Assembly: GCA_030684395.1 (NCBI GenBank)
Contig: JAUXTT010000008.1
Span: 248,001 to 312,000, forward strand
Direction of reading: 5' to 3'
Source: Bacteroidota bacterium
GTDB lineage: Bacteria > Bacteroidota > Bacteroidia > B-17B0 > Aurantibacillaceae
Length of the DNA: 64,000 nucleotides
The translations under genes were made by a program, and so were the position numbers. The notes beneath the pieces are model-generated. The model saw only the letters and a list, made by a program, of their open reading frames with translations. It had not been told where the DNA came from and did no database searches. Shown one piece after another: positions 17,682-27,116 of the stretch (position 1 is its first letter; every line of letters starts with the position of its first letter).

Positions 17682-17689
17682 CAAATGTA
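17682..17689 (-). promoter_or_regulatory. -7 promoter element for the cobalamin operon
   Basis: The minus strand reads tacatttg (exact TAnnTTTG), about 40 nt before the start of the riboswitch core. No convincing -33 TTTG. Confidence 0.45.
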
Positions 17690-17752: not shown

Positions 17753-18013
17753 CTATTTACAGGCGCCAACATAGCTCTTGTAATTTTCACCAACCCACTT
17801 TTTAAAATCTTCGTAGGACGCAACCGCTTCAACATGTTCATCACCCATTCTTAGAATAGTGACATTACCTGTTGATTTTTTAATTTCCTTAGAAAGTGTT
17901 TCAAACTGTGTGAAACCCTGATCAAAAGATGCTCTTTTATCAGAATAATAATGAGGGCCGTATATGCTACCTGCACACTTATTATCTATAAATACTTTAT
18001 ATACTACTTCCAT
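17753..18013 (-). CDS. 86-aa hypothetical protein downstream of the trp operon
   Basis: Starts MEVVYKVFIDNKCAGSIYGP and ends YKSYVGACK. Mixed alpha/beta composition, no signal peptide and no family I recognise. It is on the same strand, 35 nt after the DAHP synthase gene, so it may be the last gene of the trp transcript. The next feature downstream is the cobalamin-operon leader. Confidence 0.5.
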   Translation of the reverse strand: MEVVYKVFIDNKCAGSIYGPHYYSDKRASFDQGFTQFETLSKEIKKSTGNVTILRMGDEHVEAVASYEDFKKWVGENYKSYVGACK

Positions 18014-18048
18014 TGAATAATTATCGTATGCAAGATAGCAAAATATAT

Positions 18049-19065
18049 TTATCCCCGCATCGCAATTCTCGCTTCATAAGCTATTTTAAGTTTTCGGTTC
18101 AATTCAGCGGACTCAATAAAATTTAAAGTTTGCTGCCCGTCTGATAAAGCCTCTTCCGGTTTTTCATGAATTTCAATACTTACACCATCCGCTCCCGCCA
18201 TTAATGCAGCCAAGGACATTTGTTCTACATGCTCACGAATTCCAATTCCGTGCGAAGGATCAACCACCACAGGCAAATGCGTTTTTTCTTTTAAGATAGG
18301 AACTGCATTTAGGTCCAATGTATTTCTATATGCCTTTTCGTACGTACGGATCCCTCTTTCGCATAAAATGATCTTCTCATTTCCATTGCTGTATATGTAT
18401 TCTGCTGATTGTAATAATTCCTCAATAGTTCCTGAAAGCCCGCGTTTCAAAAGAATAGGTTTATCCACATTTCCCAACTCGTGTAGCAAATTAAAGTTTT
18501 GGCTGTTTCTTGCGCCTACCTGAAATACATCCACATAATCATGCATCTGAGTGATCTGCTCAATTTCCATTACCTCGGTAACTATTTTTATTCCATAATC
18601 TTTAGCAATGGCTGAAAACATTTTTAACCCTTCAATGCCCAGGCCTCTGAATGCATAGGGAGAACTACGAGGCTTAAATACACCACCGCGCATTAGTTTC
18701 AAACCTTGCTGACGCATATGTTCTACTATCTTCACAATCTGCTCTTCGCTCTCTACTGAACAAGGTCCGGTGATCACACTGAAATTACTCTCGCCAATTT
18801 CAACTCCATCTCCTAATGAAATAGTTGTGCCGGAAACTTTTCTTTTTCTGTTTACGAGTTTGTAATCATCTGTCACTCTGTGAACATCATGAACTCCCGG
18901 AAGTATGCCGATAGCCCTGATATCGAACTCCTTTTTCCCAACCCCAATAATATATTGTAAAGATTGCGTTTTAACGATAGAAGCTTTATAACCTACCCCA
19001 TTTACCTTTTCCAGAATATGTTGCACTGCTTTATTTTCTATATTTTTTTCTAATTGTAAGATCAT
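18049..19065 (-). CDS. aroF: 3-deoxy-7-phosphoheptulonate (DAHP) synthase, class I-beta
   Basis: Product of 338 residues. An N-terminal ferredoxin-like regulatory domain (about 1-75) precedes the (beta/alpha)8 catalytic domain with VITGPCSVESEEQIV, RGGVFKPRSSPYAFRGLG, DVFQVGARNSQNFNLL, LLKRGLSG and VVDPSHGIGIREHV. This architecture is the AroA I-beta form, as in Thermotoga. It condenses phosphoenolpyruvate and erythrose 4-phosphate, the first step of the shikimate pathway. It lies 6 nt after trpA, so tryptophan attenuation can also tune entry into aromatic synthesis. Confidence 0.93.
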   Translation of the reverse strand: MILQLEKNIENKAVQHILEKVNGVGYKASIVKTQSLQYIIGVGKKEFDIRAIGILPGVHDVHRVTDDYKLVNRKRKVSGTTISLGDGVEIGESNFSVITGPCSVESEEQIVKIVEHMRQQGLKLMRGGVFKPRSSPYAFRGLGIEGLKMFSAIAKDYGIKIVTEVMEIEQITQMHDYVDVFQVGARNSQNFNLLHELGNVDKPILLKRGLSGTIEELLQSAEYIYSNGNEKIILCERGIRTYEKAYRNTLDLNAVPILKEKTHLPVVVDPSHGIGIREHVEQMSLAALMAGADGVSIEIHEKPEEALSDGQQTLNFIESAELNRKLKIAYEARIAMRG

Positions 19066-19071
19066 GATAGT

Positions 19072-19863
19072 TTAGAGTATTGAGTTGTGAGTTAATTGTG
19101 CCTGATCTTTTATGCTACTAATGAATGTGTTTACTTTTTCCTTTAGCAAGCCTTCACCACTAATTGCATTAATGAAGGAGGTCCCAATAATAGCTCCATT
19201 GGCATATTTGCAGGCTTCCTCAAAGGTATTTCGATCCTTGATCCCAAATCCAATAAGAACCGGATAGTTCAATCCTTTTATTCTATGAAAATAATTTTCT
19301 TTGCTTTCCTGCATTCCATTTTTATTTCCTGTGGTGGAATTGGAAGAAACAAAATAAAGAAATGAATTACTGGCTTCATCAATTTTCTTCAAACGTTCTG
19401 CAGAAGTTCCCGGACTAACAAGAAGAATATTAGAGAGTTCGTATTCTTCAAAAATCGATTGATACCGTTCCAAATATTCATCCAAAGGAAGATCAGGAAT
19501 GATCACACCATCAATACCGGCTTCTTTGCATTTGGCACAAAATTTTTCTACTCCGAATTGTAAAACCGGATTAAAATAACCCATCAATACCAAAGGAATA
19601 GTAACGTGTTTACGAATGTCTTTCAATTGTTCGAACAATAAGTTCAAAGTCATACCGTTTTCCAAAGCTACCTTACTACTTTGCTGGATCACAGGCCCGT
19701 CTGCTAAGGGATCAGAGAAAGGAATTCCAATTTCTATCATATCAGCTCCGGAAGCCTGTAACTCTTCAATAATACGAGATGTATCATTCAGATTTGGGTA
19801 TCCGGCTGTGAAATAAATATTCAGTAAGTCTTTTTTCGTGAGTGTATTTTTTAAACGTGTCAT
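19072..19863 (-). CDS. trpA: tryptophan synthase alpha subunit
   Basis: Product of 263 residues. Catalytic Glu in MIEIGIPFSDPLADGPVIQ together with the Asp of DPLADGP; the phosphate-binding GFGIKDR and GAIIGTSFI segments are in place. It cleaves indole-3-glycerol phosphate to indole, which is channelled to TrpB. It is 38 nt downstream of trpB on the same transcript. Confidence 0.96.
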   Translation of the reverse strand: MTRLKNTLTKKDLLNIYFTAGYPNLNDTSRIIEELQASGADMIEIGIPFSDPLADGPVIQQSSKVALENGMTLNLLFEQLKDIRKHVTIPLVLMGYFNPVLQFGVEKFCAKCKEAGIDGVIIPDLPLDEYLERYQSIFEEYELSNILLVSPGTSAERLKKIDEASNSFLYFVSSNSTTGNKNGMQESKENYFHRIKGLNYPVLIGFGIKDRNTFEEACKYANGAIIGTSFINAISGEGLLKEKVNTFISSIKDQAQLTHNSIL

Positions 19864-19901
19864 ATCTTAGTTATTAATATTTTAATTTTTTACTTGAAAC
19901 A

Positions 19902-21107
19902 TTAATGTTGCTTCACGGCATTCAAGTGTTTAATATATGTTTCCAGGTCCTTGTCTCCCCTGCCCGATAAGTTAAGCGCTACTACATCGGTAGTTTTGAA
20001 TTTCATCTTGTCTAATGCAGCAAACGCATGGGCACTTTCCAAAGCTGGAATTATTCCTTCCAATTTTGTCACTTCCAATGCAGCACCCAATGCTTCTTCA
20101 TCTGTAACACTTATAAATTCAGCTCGCCTTGTTTCGTGCAGATGTGCATGAAATGGTCCTATTCCCGGATAATCCAAGCCTGCTGAAATCGAATGTGCTT
20201 CGGTAATTTGTCCGTCTTCGGTTTGCATCAAAAGAGTTTTGCATGCATGTAGTACTCCTATCTTACCCAATACACTTGTTGCAGCTGACTTACCCGAATG
20301 AATCCCTTCTCCCGCAGCTTCAACTGCAACTAATTTTGTGCGCTCGCTTTCAAGGAAATGATAAAAAGCTCCGGCTGCATTGCTCCCGCCTCCAACGCAT
20401 GCTATCACATAATCAGGTTCTTCGTTACCTGTTTTTTCCAACAATTGTTTTCTCATCTCCTCACTGATGACAGATTGAAACTGCATCACCATATCAGGAT
20501 AAGGATGTGGGCCAACTACCGAACCAATAATGTAATGTGTGTTATCAATATTATTGATCCAGTCCCTGATTGCTTCATTGGTTGCATCTTTTAATGTTTG
20601 GCTACCACTCAAAGCAGGAACTACAGTTGCGCCTAACAAACGCATACGTTCTACATTAGGTAATTGACGCTGCATATCTACTTTTCCCATATATACTACG
20701 CATTCAATTCCCATCAGGGCACACACGGTAGCTGTTGCAACACCATGCTGCCCCGCCCCTGTTTCGGCAATAATTCTTTTCTTTCCTAATCGTTGAGCTA
20801 ACAGAATCTGGCCTATTGTATTGTTAATTTTGTGAGCACCGGTGTGATTCAGGTCTTCACGTTTGAGATAAATATTGGTATTGTATTTTTTCGACAACCG
20901 CTTTGCATAATACAATGGAGAAGGTCTTCCCACATAATCTTTCAAGAGATCGTGAAACTTTTTTTGGAAAGAGGCTTCATTAATGATCTTCAGGTAATTT
21001 TGATTTAACTCGTCAACATTGGGATATAATAATTCCGGAACAAATGCACCGCCAAAGTTTCCGAAATATCCTTTTTCATTCACATAATAATTTCGTTTAG
21101 TTTTCAT
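19902..21107 (-). CDS. trpB: tryptophan synthase beta subunit
   Basis: Product of 401 residues, full length. The PLP lysine is in [24 protein letters not shown], the phosphate-cradle [10 protein letters not shown] and the closing [10 protein letters not shown] are all present. It joins indole and serine to give tryptophan. The start overlaps trpF by 11 nt. This is the TrpB1 form that works with TrpA. Confidence 0.97.
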
Positions 21108-21720
21108 TTATTAGTTGTTTTACTTTTTTAATAAGCGCTATATCTTTTATTCCTGTTTGCGTTTCAAATCGACTATTGATATCTATCCCATATACTTTAG
21201 GGAATTCTCTTTTTATTTTCCGTACGTCCGCCAACGTAATGCCACCGCTTAAAATTACAGGTCGACCGAATTCTTTATTCTTCAATAGTCGCCAATCAAA
21301 CTGCTCACCGCTTCCGCCATGATGTTCCGTTTTGGTATCAAACAAAAAGTAATCGCTCACTTGCGAAAACAAATTCACCTGAGAGAAATCAAATTGCTCA
21401 TCAATTCCAAAAGATTTAATCACTCCTGCTCCCAGTTCCTTGACGGATTTGCAAAAGCCGGGGGATTCACCGCCATGCAACTGAACATAATCCAATCCAT
21501 ATTTCTTTACCTGTTTTTGGATCACAGCAAAAGGCGCATTTACAAACACTCCCACCTTCTTTATTTCTTTAGGTATATTTTTGATAACATCCACCTGAGT
21601 TAATTTACCAATGTATCGGGGCGATTTTTCATAAAAAATAAAACCCATGAAATCAGGCTTTGATTCTACGATCTGTCTGATATTCTCATCGTTGTTTAAG
21701 CCACATACCTTTAGTTTCAT
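21097..21720 (-). CDS. trpF: phosphoribosylanthranilate isomerase
   Basis: Product of 207 residues. KVCGLNN near the N terminus holds the catalytic Cys (residue 5), and [13 protein letters not shown], plus GIDINSRFE with the catalytic Asp, lie near the C terminus. [12 protein letters not shown] and YVQLHGGE are family motifs. It is a separate protein here, not fused to TrpC. It overlaps trpC by 4 nt and trpB by 11 nt. Confidence 0.95.
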
Positions 21721-22523
21721 ATCACTGTCTCTTTTGTATAGTTTTTAATCTGACGAATTAGATCAGCACAGGGCTTTTCGGGGCGCGCATGTTTCATAAA
21801 TGTTTCTCCAATTAAAAATCCGGAAAAGCCAGCTCCTTTTAATTCATGGATCGCTTGAGCTGAAGCAATTCCACTTTCTGAGACCTTTGGGAATTCTGCA
21901 GGAATTTTATTCGCTAGCTCAAATGAAGTTTCAATTTTCACTTCAAATGTTTCCAGGTTACGATTATTCACCCCTATCACATCTACAAATTCATTAGCAT
22001 GGTCTAATTCCTTTTCTTCTTTTATTTCCATTAGCACTTCCAAATCCAAGCTTCTTGCAAAGGATGCTAGCCTTTTTGTTTCTTCTTTTGTAAGAGCTGC
22101 TGCAATAAGCAAGATTGCATCAGCGCCAATTGACTTCGCTTCCGTAATTTGATATTCATCTACCATAAAATCTTTTCTAAGTATCGGACAATAGTTGAAT
22201 TTACGTGCAACCGTAAGGTCCTCATTTTTGCCTCCAAAAAAATGGGCATCGGTAAGCACAGACAAAGCGGAGGCTCCTGCCTGCATATATCCGACAGAAA
22301 GTTTTTCAACTGAAATGTGATTATTGATAATGCCATTTGAAGGAGACTTCCGTTTAATCTCTGCAATGATCCCGCTAAGGTCTCTCCGATTCAAGTACTT
22401 TTTAAACGACACAGTAGGTGTTTCGAAATAAATACTTTTCTCTAATAATTTAGTCGGGTACAGACTTTGTCTTTCCAGAACTTCCTTCTTTTTATGTGCA
22501 ATTATTTTTTCTAAAATATTCAT
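21717..22523 (-). CDS. trpC: indole-3-glycerol phosphate synthase
   Basis: Product of 268 residues. Motifs: IAEIKRKSPSNG (catalytic Glu/Lys), ILRKDFMVDEYQI, DAILLIAAAL, VIGVNNRNLETFEV and SESGIASAQAI with GFLIGETFM. Converts carboxyphenylamino-deoxyribulose phosphate to indole-3-glycerol phosphate. 51 nt separate it from trpD. Confidence 0.96.
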   Translation of the reverse strand: MNILEKIIAHKKKEVLERQSLYPTKLLEKSIYFETPTVSFKKYLNRRDLSGIIAEIKRKSPSNGIINNHISVEKLSVGYMQAGASALSVLTDAHFFGGKNEDLTVARKFNYCPILRKDFMVDEYQITEAKSIGADAILLIAAALTKEETKRLASFARSLDLEVLMEIKEEKELDHANEFVDVIGVNNRNLETFEVKIETSFELANKIPAEFPKVSESGIASAQAIHELKGAGFSGFLIGETFMKHARPEKPCADLIRQIKNYTKETVI

Positions 22524-22574
22524 ATTAATTTAGGCTATTGATTTTTGGTTATTTTTTACTGGCATCAATGCTAA

Positions 22575-23567
22575 TCATGATAATAAGATTAGTTTTTTGA
22601 AACTGCTGAATGCCTTTCTTGAAAAGAGTGAATCCCTTGCCTTTTCAATGCATTCATCTATGGTAAGCTGTTTGTAATAACATTTTAAAGCTAGTGCAGA
22701 ATTCACAAGTACCACATCGTTTTGTTGTTTGGTGCCTTCTCCGTTCAACACCTTGATGAAAATATCAGCAGCTTCTTTTACAGTACTTCCACCATAAAGT
22801 GCATCGCCACTAATTCGTTTGAACCCCATATCCTCTGGACTAAACAGATCTTCGCTTTCTTTTTTAATAACCTTAAAAAAGCCCGTCAATGAAACTTCAT
22901 CATACCTGTCAAGAGAATAAACAATAGAATAATCAGTAGTGGATTGTTGCAGCAAATATGAATACAAACGAGCCAATTCCAAACTAAAAACACCTGTGAT
23001 CTGTTTCTGCGGCTGAACAGGATTTACCAAAGGGCCTAGCATATTAAAAAAAGTCCTTACTCCCAATTCTTTTCGAACAACTGCTACGTTCTTTAAAGCG
23101 GGGTGAAAAAGCGGAGCATGCAGAAAACAGATATTGCTTTCTTCCAATTGTTTTTTTAGTAAGTCTTCATTATTAGAGAAGCTAAGCCCCAAATGCTCCA
23201 ATACACTCGAAGAGCCACAAATTGATGACACTCCATAATTACCGTGTTTAGCAACCTTCGCGCCTGCCCCTGCAACAACAAATGAAGACAGAGTAGAAAT
23301 ATTGAATGTATTTTTTCCATCGCCACCTGTTCCACAAAGGTCAATGGTTTCATATTCTTTTAGCTCCACTCTGATACAAAGATCCAACAACGCATCTCTA
23401 AATCCTTCCAATTCTTCTATTGTTATTTTACGCAACATAAATACAGTAAGAAAAGAAACGATATGACTTTGACTGTATCTGTCATCTGTAATTCTCTTCA
23501 ACACCTCTTTGGCTTCTTCTTTAGAAAGTGTTTTGTATTCCAGTAAGTGATTTAAAATATTTTTCAT
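22575..23567 (-). CDS. trpD: anthranilate phosphoribosyltransferase
   Basis: Product of 330 residues. The PRPP/Mg loop CGTGGDGKNTFNIST, then KHGNYGVSSICGSSSVLEHLG and FFNMLGPLVNPVQP are all typical. It transfers phosphoribose to anthranilate. Not fused to TrpG; five nt separate it from trpG. Confidence 0.96.
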   Translation of the reverse strand: MKNILNHLLEYKTLSKEEAKEVLKRITDDRYSQSHIVSFLTVFMLRKITIEELEGFRDALLDLCIRVELKEYETIDLCGTGGDGKNTFNISTLSSFVVAGAGAKVAKHGNYGVSSICGSSSVLEHLGLSFSNNEDLLKKQLEESNICFLHAPLFHPALKNVAVVRKELGVRTFFNMLGPLVNPVQPQKQITGVFSLELARLYSYLLQQSTTDYSIVYSLDRYDEVSLTGFFKVIKKESEDLFSPEDMGFKRISGDALYGGSTVKEAADIFIKVLNGEGTKQQNDVVLVNSALALKCYYKQLTIDECIEKARDSLFSRKAFSSFKKLILLS

Positions 23568-23572
23568 AGTTA

Positions 23573-24145
23573 TTAATCATTTATCCAGTTAAACATCATC
23601 TCTTTTCCAAATTCGGTGAGAATACTCTCCGGGTGGAATTGCAGGCCTTTTACATCATATTGCTTGTGAGCTAAAGCCATTATTATTCCATCCTTATCTT
23701 CAGCAGTTATTTTTAGTTCTGCTGAAAATGTTTCTCTGTCTGCCTGCCATGAATGATACCTTCCTACCGAAAATGAATCGGGAATGCCTTTAAAAATTTC
23801 ATCTCTCTCATCCGAAAGATTTATTGGTGTAGCTACTCCGTGAAATACTTTTTCCAGATTGCTTAATTTTCCGCCAAATACTTCTGCAATAGCCTGATGT
23901 CCGAGACAAATTCCCAAAATACTTTTTATAGATGCGTAATGTTTGATCACATCCTTAATAATTCCTGCTTCACTTGGTATTCCTGGTCCAGGAGAGATCA
24001 GTATTTTACCATAAGCATTCACTTCCTGCAAAGAGATCTTATCATTTCTTATAACATCTATTTCAAAAGAGCTTACACTCTTCATCAGGTGAACCAAATT
24101 GTAAGTGAAACTATCGTAGTTATCAATTAATAAAATTCTGTTCAT
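23573..24145 (-). CDS. trpG: anthranilate synthase component II (glutamine amidotransferase)
   Basis: Product of 190 residues, class I GATase. ISPGPGIPSEAG, nucleophile elbow LGICLGHQAIAEVFGG (Cys about residue 79) and the C-terminal LQFHPESI carrying His-Pro-Glu are present. It supplies ammonia to TrpE. Four nt separate it from trpE. Confidence 0.95.
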   Translation of the reverse strand: MNRILLIDNYDSFTYNLVHLMKSVSSFEIDVIRNDKISLQEVNAYGKILISPGPGIPSEAGIIKDVIKHYASIKSILGICLGHQAIAEVFGGKLSNLEKVFHGVATPINLSDERDEIFKGIPDSFSVGRYHSWQADRETFSAELKITAEDKDGIIMALAHKQYDVKGLQFHPESILTEFGKEMMFNWIND

Positions 24146-24149
24146 GATC

Positions 24150-25550
24150 TTAGTTTAATTCGTTAGCTAAAACAAGTGCTTGTCTTAATACTCTTATTTT
24201 ATTATTTACTTCTTCCAGTTCATTTTCTATCACCGACGATTCAACCAATCCTGCTCCAGCCTGATAATGTAAAGTATTGTCTTTACTCAAAAAAGAACGA
24301 ATAGTAATGGCATGATTAAAATCTCCTTCGTTATTCAAAAAGCCAATACAACCTCCGTAAAAACTCCTGGAAGTATTTTCATACCGATCAATCAACTGCA
24401 GGGCTTTATATTTAGGCGCACCGGATAATGTTCCTGCAGGAAAGGTGTCTGAAAGGATATCCAGCACCCCCGCATTTTCTTCCAGTTCTGATGTTACCTC
24501 AGAAACAAGATGGATCACGTGAGAGTAATATTGAATCTCTTTGTAGTTAACAACCGAAACATTAGTACCACTCTTACTCAAGTCGTTCCTTGCCAGGTCA
24601 ACCAGCATAACATGCTCTGAGTTTTCTTTTGGATCATTCTTTAATTTCTCAGCAAGGAATGCGTCCGCTGCTGCATCCCCTGTACGACGGAAAGTCCCGG
24701 CGATCGGGAACAGCTTGGCCTTATTGTTTTTTATTTGTAATTGCGCTTCAGGCGAAGAACCGAAGATTTTATAACTTCCAAAATCAAAGTAAAAGAGATA
24801 TGGTGAAGGATTAATAGAACGTAATGCTCGGTAAACATTAAAGTCATCGCCTTTGAATTTAGAAGTAAACCTCCTTGATAAAACCAATTGAAAAACATCT
24901 CCTCTGAAAATATGTTGCTTGCCTTTTTCTAAAACACTCAGAAATTCTTCATCTGTATAATTGGAAACCTCTTCACTGATGGTTTTGAACGGATAGCTCG
25001 CAGGTGATTGTTGTTTCAGGAAAGAAAGAACAGATTGGATCTCTGACTCCTGTTGTTCCTGCAGCAATTCAACTACATGCATTTCATTTTTAAAATGGTT
25101 GATAGCTATTATGAACTGAAAGAAAGAATAAGACATATCAGGAATTTCTGATTGAACATTCGCAAAATCAATTTCTTCAAAACAAGTAACTGCGTCAAAA
25201 GTAATATAGCCGAATATCCCTCCGGGAATGAAATCGGTTTTACCATCCTTTTCAATAGTGAAACCCGAACTAAACACCTTTAATGCATCCAACACTCCGG
25301 CCTTGCTTTTCACTTCATAGGAGCGTTCATCTTGCCCCAATTCCGTTTCTGTTATCTTGCTTTTGAAATAACGAAAGTTAGCTATAGGTTTAAAACAGAT
25401 ATAAGAAAAGCTGTTAGCATTCCCATGATAATCGGAACTTTCAAGCAAAAAAGCACCCGGGAATATATCACGTAGTTTCAGGTAAATATTTACCGGAGTT
25501 GTTGTGTCGGATAACATTTTAATATGGTTTTTTTTAAATGAGTACTTCAT
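24150..25550 (-). CDS. trpE: anthranilate synthase component I
   Basis: Product of 466 residues. The N-terminal LLESSDYHGNANSFSYI contains the LLES motif that binds tryptophan in feedback-inhibited enzymes. The chorismate-binding domain has RGDVFQLVLSRRF, NPSPYLFYFDFG, GSSPEAQL, PIAGTFRRTGD, ENSEHVMLVDLARNDL, GTLSGAPK and FYGGCIGF. First structural gene of the operon; a leader peptide and attenuator lie just upstream. I use the ATG at 25550; an ATG at 25517 is an alternative. Confidence 0.96.
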   Translation of the reverse strand: MKYSFKKNHIKMLSDTTTPVNIYLKLRDIFPGAFLLESSDYHGNANSFSYICFKPIANFRYFKSKITETELGQDERSYEVKSKAGVLDALKVFSSGFTIEKDGKTDFIPGGIFGYITFDAVTCFEEIDFANVQSEIPDMSYSFFQFIIAINHFKNEMHVVELLQEQQESEIQSVLSFLKQQSPASYPFKTISEEVSNYTDEEFLSVLEKGKQHIFRGDVFQLVLSRRFTSKFKGDDFNVYRALRSINPSPYLFYFDFGSYKIFGSSPEAQLQIKNNKAKLFPIAGTFRRTGDAAADAFLAEKLKNDPKENSEHVMLVDLARNDLSKSGTNVSVVNYKEIQYYSHVIHLVSEVTSELEENAGVLDILSDTFPAGTLSGAPKYKALQLIDRYENTSRSFYGGCIGFLNNEGDFNHAITIRSFLSKDNTLHYQAGAGLVESSVIENELEEVNNKIRVLRQALVLANELN

Positions 25551-25582
25551 GTGTAAATTTTGTTTTTGGAAATATTAGAAAT

Positions 25583-25615
25583 AAAAAAAGGCCTGACGAT
25601 CGTCAAGCCTTTTCG
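25583..25615 (-). terminator. trp attenuator hairpin
   Basis: On the minus strand: aaaggcttgacg / cgtcaggccttt with loop at (one G-U pair), then ttttttt. It stands between the leader peptide stop (25640) and trpE (25550), the place expected for a transcription attenuator. I could not identify a convincing competing antiterminator by eye. Confidence 0.85.
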
Positions 25616-25639
25616 GATATTGTTAGATATACAAAATAG

Positions 25640-25708
25640 TTAAGCCATCTGAGCGTCCCACGAGGATTTCAGAAACCACCACCAATTTTGTACATTAGAA
25701 AAATTCAT
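25640..25708 (-). CDS. trpL: trp operon leader peptide
   Basis: A 22-codon frame beginning MNFSNVQNWWWFLKSSW. Three consecutive Trp codons are at positions 9-11 and a fourth at 17, followed by DAQMA and a stop. A terminator hairpin begins 24 nt after the stop, followed by trpE. Four Trp in 22 residues immediately upstream of a trp operon is the signature of ribosome-mediated attenuation: stalling at Trp codons would favour read-through into trpE. Confidence 0.92.
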   Translation of the reverse strand: MNFSNVQNWWWFLKSSWDAQMA

Positions 25709-25730
25709 TTCTTTTGAAGAATTATGCCAG

Positions 25731-25762
25731 CAAAGCAAGTGCATTTTTTTCAATTCACCAAA
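25731..25762 (-). promoter_or_regulatory. candidate trp operon promoter
   Basis: Minus strand: TTTG (25762-25759), 20-nt spacer, ttgctttg (25738-25731; one mismatch to TAnnTTTG). It is 23 nt before the trpL ATG. The 20-nt spacing matches the arsR promoter in this window. Confidence 0.5.
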
Positions 25763-25901
25763 TAATTTTTAATTAAAACCCCAAAAGCCAACGTTTACAA
25801 TACTTTCAAAGTATTTTTAATTTGTTAAATTATCCTATTAACTTATCCTACTCATTAAACTCTCCCATTTTTAATTACATTTATATTAGAAAATAACAAC
25901 T

Positions 25902-27116
25902 ATGCATCCATTTAGTATTACAGAAAACATAAGTGAATTGAACTTTTTGCTCGAACAAAAAGACATAAGTAAAGCAAGCAGAAAAATGCTGGACCTCACC
26001 AAGGAGTTTGACCTTCCTCAGGAAATAGAACTACTTGCTCACGAGGTAAGAATCCATCATAACAGTTTACAAACTGAAACGCAACTGGTGGATGAAGTTG
26101 TTGTTGAAAAATGCAAATACTTCCTAGCATATATCGAACAACATAAAGAACAGTTTGAGTCCTTCATTCAACAAATAGATCATGGAACTTCAACAGTATA
26201 CTATGCAAAAGGGATAAGTAAACGTTTTTGGTCGGGTAATTCACCGTTTTATTTACAACCTTCCGATCTGGAATTAAGAACGGGGCAAATTACTGGGGTA
26301 GTAGGCGAGAACGGAAACGGTAAGACCACTTTATTAAGAATTGTAGCCGGTGAACTTATGAGTGATACAGGAGAAATTACTTATCCCTTGTTGAGTTTAA
26401 AAGCTGGGCAGTGGTATGATATTAAAAATCAAATTGCTTTTATTCCGCAACGCTTAAGCAAATGGCATGGTACATTACTGGACAATCTTCGTTTTTACGC
26501 AAACATACATGGGATCAAAGAAGAGGAGAATGAGAAGCAGGTTGCTTATATTTTACATCGTTTAGGTCTCGACAAATTCAAACATTTGAAATGGAGCGAA
26601 ATATCCAGTGGATACAGGCTACGTTTTGAATTAGCGAAAATGCTAATGAGAAGACCCAAGTTGTTAGTATTGGATGAACCTCTTGCCAATCTGGACATTA
26701 ATGCGCAACAGCTATTTCTTCAGGATTTGAAATTCATTATTAAATCGATACGTTATCCATTATCTATCATTTTAAGTTCACAAGCTTTACATGAAATTGA
26801 GAGTGTTGCCGACAATATTATCTTCATCAAACAAGGGCAAACTATTTACAGTGGCTCTCAAAAAGCATTCGGTCAGGATAGAAAAGTAAACACTTTTGAG
26901 GTCTCAGGAAATTTTACCCGCGAACAATTGGTACAAGTGATGCAGTTGATACCTGGATCAAAAATAGAGGACAGCGGAACCATCTATTTTATTTCTGTTC
27001 CAACAGACTTCAGTGCGGAGGAGTTTTTACAGACTCTTATCATGAACAAGATCCCGCTGACCTATTACCGCGACATAAGTTTCTCGACCCGTAAATTATT
27101 TAAAAAAGATTTTTAA
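25902..27116 (+). CDS. ABC transporter ATP-binding protein with N-terminal helical domain
   Basis: Product of 404 residues. About 100 N-terminal residues are helical and acidic with no motif I know. The ABC domain follows: Walker A GENGNGKTT (about 135-143), a Q-loop region (FIPQRLSKWHGTLLDNL), signature SSGYRLRFELAKM where the usual LSGGQ is degenerate, and Walker B LLVLDEPLANLD. After it comes a C-terminal 75-residue tail. One nt separates it from the membrane partner. It is probably an ABC-2-like exporter; substrate unknown. Confidence 0.82.
   Translation: MHPFSITENISELNFLLEQKDISKASRKMLDLTKEFDLPQEIELLAHEVRIHHNSLQTETQLVDEVVVEKCKYFLAYIEQHKEQFESFIQQIDHGTSTVYYAKGISKRFWSGNSPFYLQPSDLELRTGQITGVVGENGNGKTTLLRIVAGELMSDTGEITYPLLSLKAGQWYDIKNQIAFIPQRLSKWHGTLLDNLRFYANIHGIKEEENEKQVAYILHRLGLDKFKHLKWSEISSGYRLRFELAKMLMRRPKLLVLDEPLANLDINAQQLFLQDLKFIIKSIRYPLSIILSSQALHEIESVADNIIFIKQGQTIYSGSQKAFGQDRKVNTFEVSGNFTREQLVQVMQLIPGSKIEDSGTIYFISVPTDFSAEEFLQTLIMNKIPLTYYRDISFSTRKLFKKDF

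Follow-up and report, generated by a model that had tools for sequence, protein, structure and literature searches.

The window analysed here, a DNA stretch of 64,000 nucleotides from a Bacteroidota genome, carries a trp operon on its minus strand. The genes of the operon were assigned on the basis of Pfam domains, together with operon position in the case of trpG, trpD and trpB:

25550–24150, minus strand: trpE, anthranilate synthase component I (PF00425, PF04715)
24145–23573, minus strand: trpG (PF00117)
23567–22575, minus strand: trpD (PF00591, PF02885)
22523–21717, minus strand: trpC (PF00218)
21720–21097, minus strand: trpF (PF00697)
21107–19902, minus strand: trpB (PF00291)
19863–19072, minus strand: trpA (PF00290)
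19065–18049, minus strand: DAHP synthase gene, likely the last gene of the operon (PF00793)

TrpE is patchily distributed in the family of the window, with a match at E ≤ 1e-100 in 30 of 87 genomes, among them that of the window. Among the best 80 of 592 matches, the TrpE of the window shares up to 59% identity with proteins from other families; within its own family, the identity does not exceed 53%, with 56% in one partial match. In a TrpE tree of 64 rows, the window sits on a long branch without a resolved place, and the tree bears neither way on horizontal gain of the operon. A cobalamin riboswitch (RF00174; 100.4 bits) is located at 17689–17487 on the minus strand, and the 642-aa ORF found 3' of it (17414–15486) resembles, by eye, that of a TonB-dependent receptor, perhaps for vitamin B12 uptake. 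In the genome of the window (98.9% complete), chorismate synthase and a full trp operon are present, and no HisG (PF01634), prephenate dehydratase (PF00800) or prephenate dehydrogenase (PF02153) was detected at E ≤ 0.001. Judging by this gene content, the organism may possibly need external His, Phe and Tyr while making Trp.

The region upstream of trpE contains the following elements:

25762–25759, minus strand: candidate −33 promoter element TTTG, recognised from the sequence, 20 nt from the −7 box
25738–25731, minus strand: candidate −7 promoter element TTGCTTTG, with one mismatch (second base) to TAnnTTTG
25708–25640, minus strand: leader ORF (trpL), MNFSNVQNWWWFLKSSWDAQMA, 22 codons and a TAA stop
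25695–25685, minus strand: segment 1 (AUGUACAAAAU), paired with 25637–25627 in the minimum free energy (MFE) fold
25684–25676, minus strand: three consecutive Trp codons (9–11), the presumed sensing site, from the sequence
25660–25658, minus strand: fourth Trp codon (codon 17), a possible second stalling point, from the sequence
25646–25627, minus strand: segment 2, with segment 1 or segment 3 as alternative partner; overlaps the last codon and the stop of the leader ORF
25620–25606, minus strand: segment 3, the 5' part of the terminator and the AUAU upstream of it; weak antiterminator partner of segment 2
25614–25583, minus strand: intrinsic terminator (3:4 hairpin at 25614–25585 and T run at 25589–25583), from sequence and folding

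The 22-codon frame with Trp at codons 9–11 and 17, which an earlier sequence-only reading had described, is present at these positions, and the hairpin said to separate it from trpE lies where expected, with trpE starting at 25550. The hairpin had been called G+C-rich, which is generous, as 5 of its 13 pairs are G–C by scan; the seven T reported after it do exist, but five of them are paired with an A-tract. A longer reading of the leader ORF from the ATG at 25744 was rejected, because this codon is positioned directly 5' of the −7 box and the longer frame is therefore probably untranscribed.

The arms of the terminator hairpin (25614–25602 and 25597–25585) form 13 pairs with an energy of −18.2 kcal/mol, a stability that none of 200 shuffles equalled. 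Terminator-like sites as such are not rarer in shuffled DNA (three sites in 18000–26000 vs. a shuffled mean of 4.8), and the leader hairpin has the longest stem of the three. Folding of the whole leader resulted in a z-score of −4.85 (0/200 shuffles equally stable). In the best fold, the terminator is kept intact, and segments 1 and 2 are joined by a helix of 11 consecutive pairs (25695–25685/25637–25627), so that a protector hairpin (1:2), the competitor of an antiterminator, is part of the MFE structure.

The run of Trp codons is by itself no proof of regulation, since TGGTGGTGG, which occurs once in the window where 0.20 copies are expected, appeared at least once in 20 of 100 window shuffles. 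Genome-wide, on both strands, there are 111 such sites, as compared to 99 for the pattern read backwards. A small ORF that stands before an ordinary terminator by chance would be in line with these frequencies. We nevertheless consider such a coincidence hardly credible in view of the folding z-score of the leader and, above all, the conservation of the frame 5' of trpE in other loci, which was assessed with controls.

The comparison included 104 trpE loci from Bacteroidota: the window, 23 loci from related genomes, and the best 80 of 592 matches, a choice that biases the sample towards trpE genes resembling that of the window. The 592 matches came from an alignment-based scan; an earlier contig scan with a single TrpE protein gave 22 pattern matches, none of which was confirmed. 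The first locus set (30 loci, L002–L031) yielded 24 loci, the window included, after removal of L025 (trpE cut at the contig end) and of the paralogues L027–L031 (28–33% identical); the second trpE copy in genome G047 is outside the set. At least 100 nt of upstream sequence was available for 102 of the 104 loci, L129 and L140 being without upstream sequence. A leader was accepted when a small ORF with two Trp residues no more than three residues apart was followed, at 30–170 nt, by a T run, the 45 nt before which had to fold below −11 kcal/mol. The ORF and the terminator were picked automatically, and the choice is doubtful in some rows (e.g., L006, L125, L074, L082 and L111).

By this rule, a Trp-rich small ORF and a terminator-like hairpin were found 5' of trpE in 100 of the 102 loci, including the window; the same rule accepted 5 of 510 dinucleotide shuffles and 0 of 102 reverse strands. 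The two loci missed by the rule are L007 and L014. Under a strict rule demanding WWW, 82 of the 102 loci were accepted, along with 0/510 shuffles and 0/102 reverse strands. Lack of conservation of the WWW frame in close relatives had been set beforehand as a refuting condition for the attenuation proposal; the frame is kept in these 82 loci, which are not close relatives. The Trp-rich ORF was seen in each of 15 further loci of the window's family. The general rule located a terminator in 13 of them, and a pattern composed after the first ones had been viewed located it in every one. The Trp run and the terminator are separated by 61 nt in the window, close to the median of 59 nt across loci (10th–90th percentile, 51–77 nt).

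Some leaders depart from this layout. In L074, L082 and L111 (Draconibacterium, Prolixibacteraceae), the leader reads IWLPWWGLL and the strongest terminator is located 187–193 nt past the Trp codons, about threefold the usual distance, which possibly reflects two hairpins or tandem control. In L087, L124, L134, L014 and L023, Trp alternates with or is replaced by other residues (WHWH, WHWQ, WLWQ, WCC and WWC); in L014, a single Trp codon precedes two Cys codons. Such mixed leaders might broaden what is sensed.

The promoter TTTG-N20-TTGCTTTG (25762–25731), suggested by the sequence-only reading, was borne out in part: both boxes and the 20-nt spacer are present, but the −7 box deviates from TAnnTTTG. 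The two-box consensus has four exact matches in the window (2.7 expected by chance), none of which lies at the trp leader. With the motif search at chance level, the promoter motif alone was dropped as evidence. In Flavobacterium johnsoniae, the final G of the −7 box corresponds to position −5, according to the accessible text of PMC6847099. By this spacing, transcription of the window leader is predicted to start near 25726, leaving a 5' UTR of about 18 nt. In the relatives, the start of transcription was taken as five bases past the last G of TAnnTTTG.

Of 100 loci, 75 have a TAnnTTTG box in the 45 nt that precede the leader start codon; base-shuffled sequence gave 4.5 such loci on average and no more than 11. 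In many trp leaders, this box lies 4–14 nt before the leader ORF, for which a nearly leaderless RNA is predicted. For comparison, 185 genes with free upstream DNA were taken from 20 stretches of 20 genomes, and 52 of them had a box. The predicted 5' UTR is 10 nt or shorter in 46/75 boxed leaders vs. 11/52 boxed control genes (Fisher p = 1e-5), and 4 nt or shorter in 31/75 vs. 9/52 (p = 0.006). These p-values are only a guide, given the kinship of the loci and the rule-based choice of start codons for leaders and control genes alike. A predicted 5' UTR of at most 10 nt was seen in 12 of 30 loci listed under Flavobacteriaceae and in 34 of 45 in the remainder. The window leader itself, with its predicted 18 nt or so, is outside this near-leaderless type. 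In the sections of the literature available, a 5' UTR below 10 nt is reported for about 3.7% in Bacteroides thetaiotaomicron (PMC7366714), leaderless mRNAs for 5.5% in Flavobacterium psychrophilum (PMC9723704), and a 5' UTR above 10 nt for 87% in F. johnsoniae (PMC6847099).

The antiterminator of the window was not obvious by eye, and a folding check for a structure that blocks the terminator had been proposed. The check gave a divided answer: the leader can be drawn with 1:2, 2:3 and 3:4 pairings that exclude one another, but the 2:3 pairing is weak. With segment 1 covered, it consists of 25646–25642/25610–25606, 25636–25632/25615–25611 and 25630–25627/25620–25617, and occupies 9 of the 13 nt of the terminator 5' arm. 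This pairing appeared for three ribosome positions (W9, W10 and W17); for W11, the best fold of the RNA to 25602 was another. The energy of this antiterminator is −4.8 kcal/mol alone and −8.1 kcal/mol with extra flanking RNA, compared with −18 kcal/mol for the terminator. Both the 2:3 duplex (106/200 shuffles as good) and the stalled-ribosome fold (92/100 shuffles as stable; z-score ranked 98th of 99 loci) are at chance level. With the terminator arms of all 99 loci tried in turn, the window's own 2:3 pair ranks 83rd, and with the segment 2 regions of all 99 it ranks 67th. A strong hidden antiterminator was also sought by RNAduplex, stalled-ribosome folds and arm swaps; these gave weak AU-rich pairing and the idea was abandoned. 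In every case examined, the terminator wins over other folds once its full sequence has been transcribed; thus, antitermination would need to be kinetic. The footprint of a ribosome reaches to about +13 from the A site in toeprinting. On this basis, a ribosome halted with its A site on the stop codon would cover 25639–25630 and block most of the 2:3 pairing. As modelled, the geometry of the window leader is that of a classical attenuator, in which the 2:3 pairing may tentatively be assigned the role of antiterminator.

A clearer picture was obtained from the relatives. In 99 loci, the RNA that separates the Trp codons from the terminator was paired with the terminator 5' arm and loop of the same locus (L070, which has no terminator by the stricter routine, is absent from these tests). 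In 42 of the 99 loci, no more than 10 of 200 shuffles gave a 2:3 duplex as good, where about 5 loci are expected. The own pairs sum to −1216.6 kcal/mol vs. −976.8 (sd 24.5) kcal/mol for swapped partners, and none of 5000 permutations was as low; this gap may come partly from base composition, which is controlled in the shuffle test. The own partner ranked in the top ten of 99 for 27 loci in one direction and for 25 in the other. For the RNA fold expected with a stalled ribosome, the median z-score is −1.27; 37 of the 99 loci fold so stably that no more than 5 of 100 shuffles equal them. The 2:3 sequences are highly divergent between lineages (for example, UGAAUCGG/CCGAUUCA in L004 and CACAGCAGGU/ACCUGCUGUG in L020), and GUGAACAGC/GCUGUUCAC is common to many members of the window's family.

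An alignment (A2) was made of 27 family leaders, from which L020 was excluded because its leader is unlike the others. Since the shuffles ignore kinship, the counts from this alignment are supportive and not probabilities: in the nine-pair 2:3 helix, 93.6% of cells are paired (0/500 shuffles) and seven cells are changed on both sides, which 0/500 shuffles reached; two-sided changes affect two pairs, a number matched by 99/500 shuffles, and further pair types were matched by 131/500; the terminator is 97.4% paired, with three pairs changed on both sides (14/500 shuffles). When the partner was slid by 1–3 columns, pairing fell to 26–50%, and the +2 slide has three pairs and six cells with two-sided changes. 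In the window's family, segment 2 coincides with the final codons of the leader ORF, which often read Val-Asn-Ser-stop. A ribosome positioned on the stop codon would overlap segment 2 by at least 6 nt in 39 of the 42 well-paired loci, and with the last Trp codon of the run in the A site, segment 2 would be wholly free in 40 of 42. The comparison supports an antiterminator in the relatives, in which the end of the leader ORF would pair with the 5' arm of the terminator. The window is an outlier against these relatives in antiterminator strength.

In 29 Flavobacteriaceae-type leaders (28 of the 29 loci above the Rfam cut-off considered below, and L120), the matching stretch is likewise weak, with energies from −1.0 to −10.4 kcal/mol (window, −4.8 kcal/mol). 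By eye, these leaders contain CGTGA (CGUGA in the RNA) near the ORF end in 28 of 29 and TCACG (UCACG) at the terminator loop in 27 of 29. The two motifs could possibly form a further helix, which is absent from the window.

The weakness of the 2:3 pairing raises the possibility of a decayed or constitutive attenuator, from which the antiterminator has drifted away, so that most of the RNA ends at the terminator regardless of Trp and the operon lives on leak-through. The chance-level 2:3 pairing of the window, next to the strong pairing in many family members, would agree with decay, as would the result that no trpE match at E ≤ 1e-60 was found in two other genomes of the window's genus (one of them 66% complete). 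We regard it as improbable, however, because the WWW frame, the fourth Trp codon, the 11-pair 1:2 helix and the typical spacing are all retained, the eight operon genes are intact open frames, and the 29 Flavobacteriaceae-type leaders are equally weak in the corresponding stretch. Less probable still is a scenario in which the Trp-rich ORF is incidental and the terminator serves control of some other type (through a Trp-binding protein, a T-box or an RNA switch not yet recognised). The weak antiterminator of the window would leave room for such control. Against this stand the near-constant presence of the Trp-rich ORF, so much rarer in shuffles, and the position of segment 2, which a terminating ribosome could mask in those 39 of 42 loci. 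Moreover, the cobalamin riboswitch, situated elsewhere, is the sole Rfam match above cut-off in the window, so that there is no T-box at that cut-off.

The leader of the window thus very likely controls the trp operon by ribosome-mediated transcription attenuation and follows the logic of E. coli trpL. This agrees with the sequence-only reading, in favour of which are the conserved WWW frame, the exclusive pairings that can be drawn, and the support for the 2:3 pairing in relatives. The ORF, the terminator-like hairpin and the possible alternative pairings are seen in the window, and a Trp-rich ORF followed by such a hairpin is common to most of the sampled trpE loci of the phylum. From these elements, we infer promoter use, translation, stalling and Trp-dependent read-through in the following manner. 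The RNA would start near 25726. If it is not translated, segment 1 (25695–25685) would pair with segment 2 (25637–25627), and the terminator (25614–25585) would form. If Trp-tRNA runs short, a ribosome held up at Trp codons 9–11, and perhaps at codon 17, would mask segment 1, and segment 2 would be left to pair with the 5' arm of the terminator (segment 3). With this antiterminator formed, the polymerase would go on to transcribe trpEGDCFBA and the DAHP synthase gene. An ample supply of Trp would let the ribosome get to the stop codon and cover segment 2, allowing the terminator to form.

The implied novelty of trp attenuation in Bacteroidota is not supported, as it has already been proposed in print. 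The family RF01692 (Bacteroid-trp), described in Rfam as tryptophan peptide leader RNA, is listed in PMC2864571, as far as its accessible text goes. The window scores 29 bits against this family, below its gathering cut-off of 49 bits. A search of 551 nt gave the match an E-value of 0.35, with an unrelated family at 0.17; in the genome of the window, where 150 out of 1642 candidates were scored, it is the sole match at E up to 10 (E = 0.73), and so lenient a threshold also produced matches in 7 of 14 control genomes, archaea included. The score being not significant, the Rfam match alone was dropped as evidence. In the alignment of the model to the window (positions 1–131), the AUG, the UGG codons and the start of the terminator are in register; the stem of the family aligns, as a weak match, at segment 1, with several non-standard pairs in the window.

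Above the cut-off, RF01692 was detected in 37 of 395 genomes of the phylum (under stricter filters) and in 29 of 100 trpE loci of relatives, 98 of which carry a leader by our rule; these are 100 of the 103 relatives' loci, L026, L129 and L140 having been left out. On this evidence, the family looks under-catalogued. Of the 29 loci, 25 are from Flavobacteriaceae by record title, and the others are L104, L116, L117 and L133. The breadth of the set of trp leaders indicates that the curated RNA family covers just part of a common regulator.

A broader proposal, for and against which we would give even chances, is that trp attenuation is near-universal in Bacteroidota with such trpE genes, about threefold beyond what Rfam catches, with an antiterminator at the ORF end and many leader ORFs translated without a Shine-Dalgarno site from a 5' UTR of 0–10 nt. 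If true, the attenuator would couple ribosome and polymerase from the first nucleotides. Attenuation requires early, timely ribosome loading, which Bacteroidota achieve without the help of Shine-Dalgarno sites and from a promoter type of their own. The wide set of trp leaders would then be a natural test of initiation timing in this phylum, and a candidate for the missing antiterminator is now offered, with comparative support.

In E. coli, the trpL leader carries a Shine-Dalgarno site and a pair of adjacent Trp codons. The window shares with it consecutive Trp codons, segments 1–4 and the masking of segment 2 by a terminating ribosome, but differs in having three and one Trp codons, a Bacteroidota-type promoter and, by eye, no Shine-Dalgarno site. 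Like the window, RF01692 is found 5' of trp genes in Bacteroidota and includes a start codon, UGG codons, a long 1:2 hairpin and the start of a terminator, whereas its model of 131 positions stops within the terminator 5' arm and is without antiterminator pairing. In F. psychrophilum, a member of the same phylum but of a different family, an attenuator-like Bacteroid-Trp element is conserved 5' of the trp operon, according to the accessible text of PMC6414381, and mapped 5' regions gave strong clues to leader-peptide attenuation before amino-acid operons, according to that of PMC9723704. A test of Trp-dependent read-through in this species was not found in the accessible parts of these two papers, and among the papers listed by a search mostly of non-subscription literature there was no further trp leader study in Bacteroidota beyond PMC2864571, PMC6414381 and PMC9723704. 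For the near-leaderless leaders predicted in other Bacteroidota, a precedent is the trpL of Sinorhizobium meliloti, the RNA of which starts at its ATG, as stated in the available portion of PMC7298713; this bacterium is an alphaproteobacterium, and its leader differs in this respect from that of the window, with a predicted 5' UTR of about 18 nt. The attenuator of the window is, very probably, a divergent member of a kind already in print, and ordinary in its logic.
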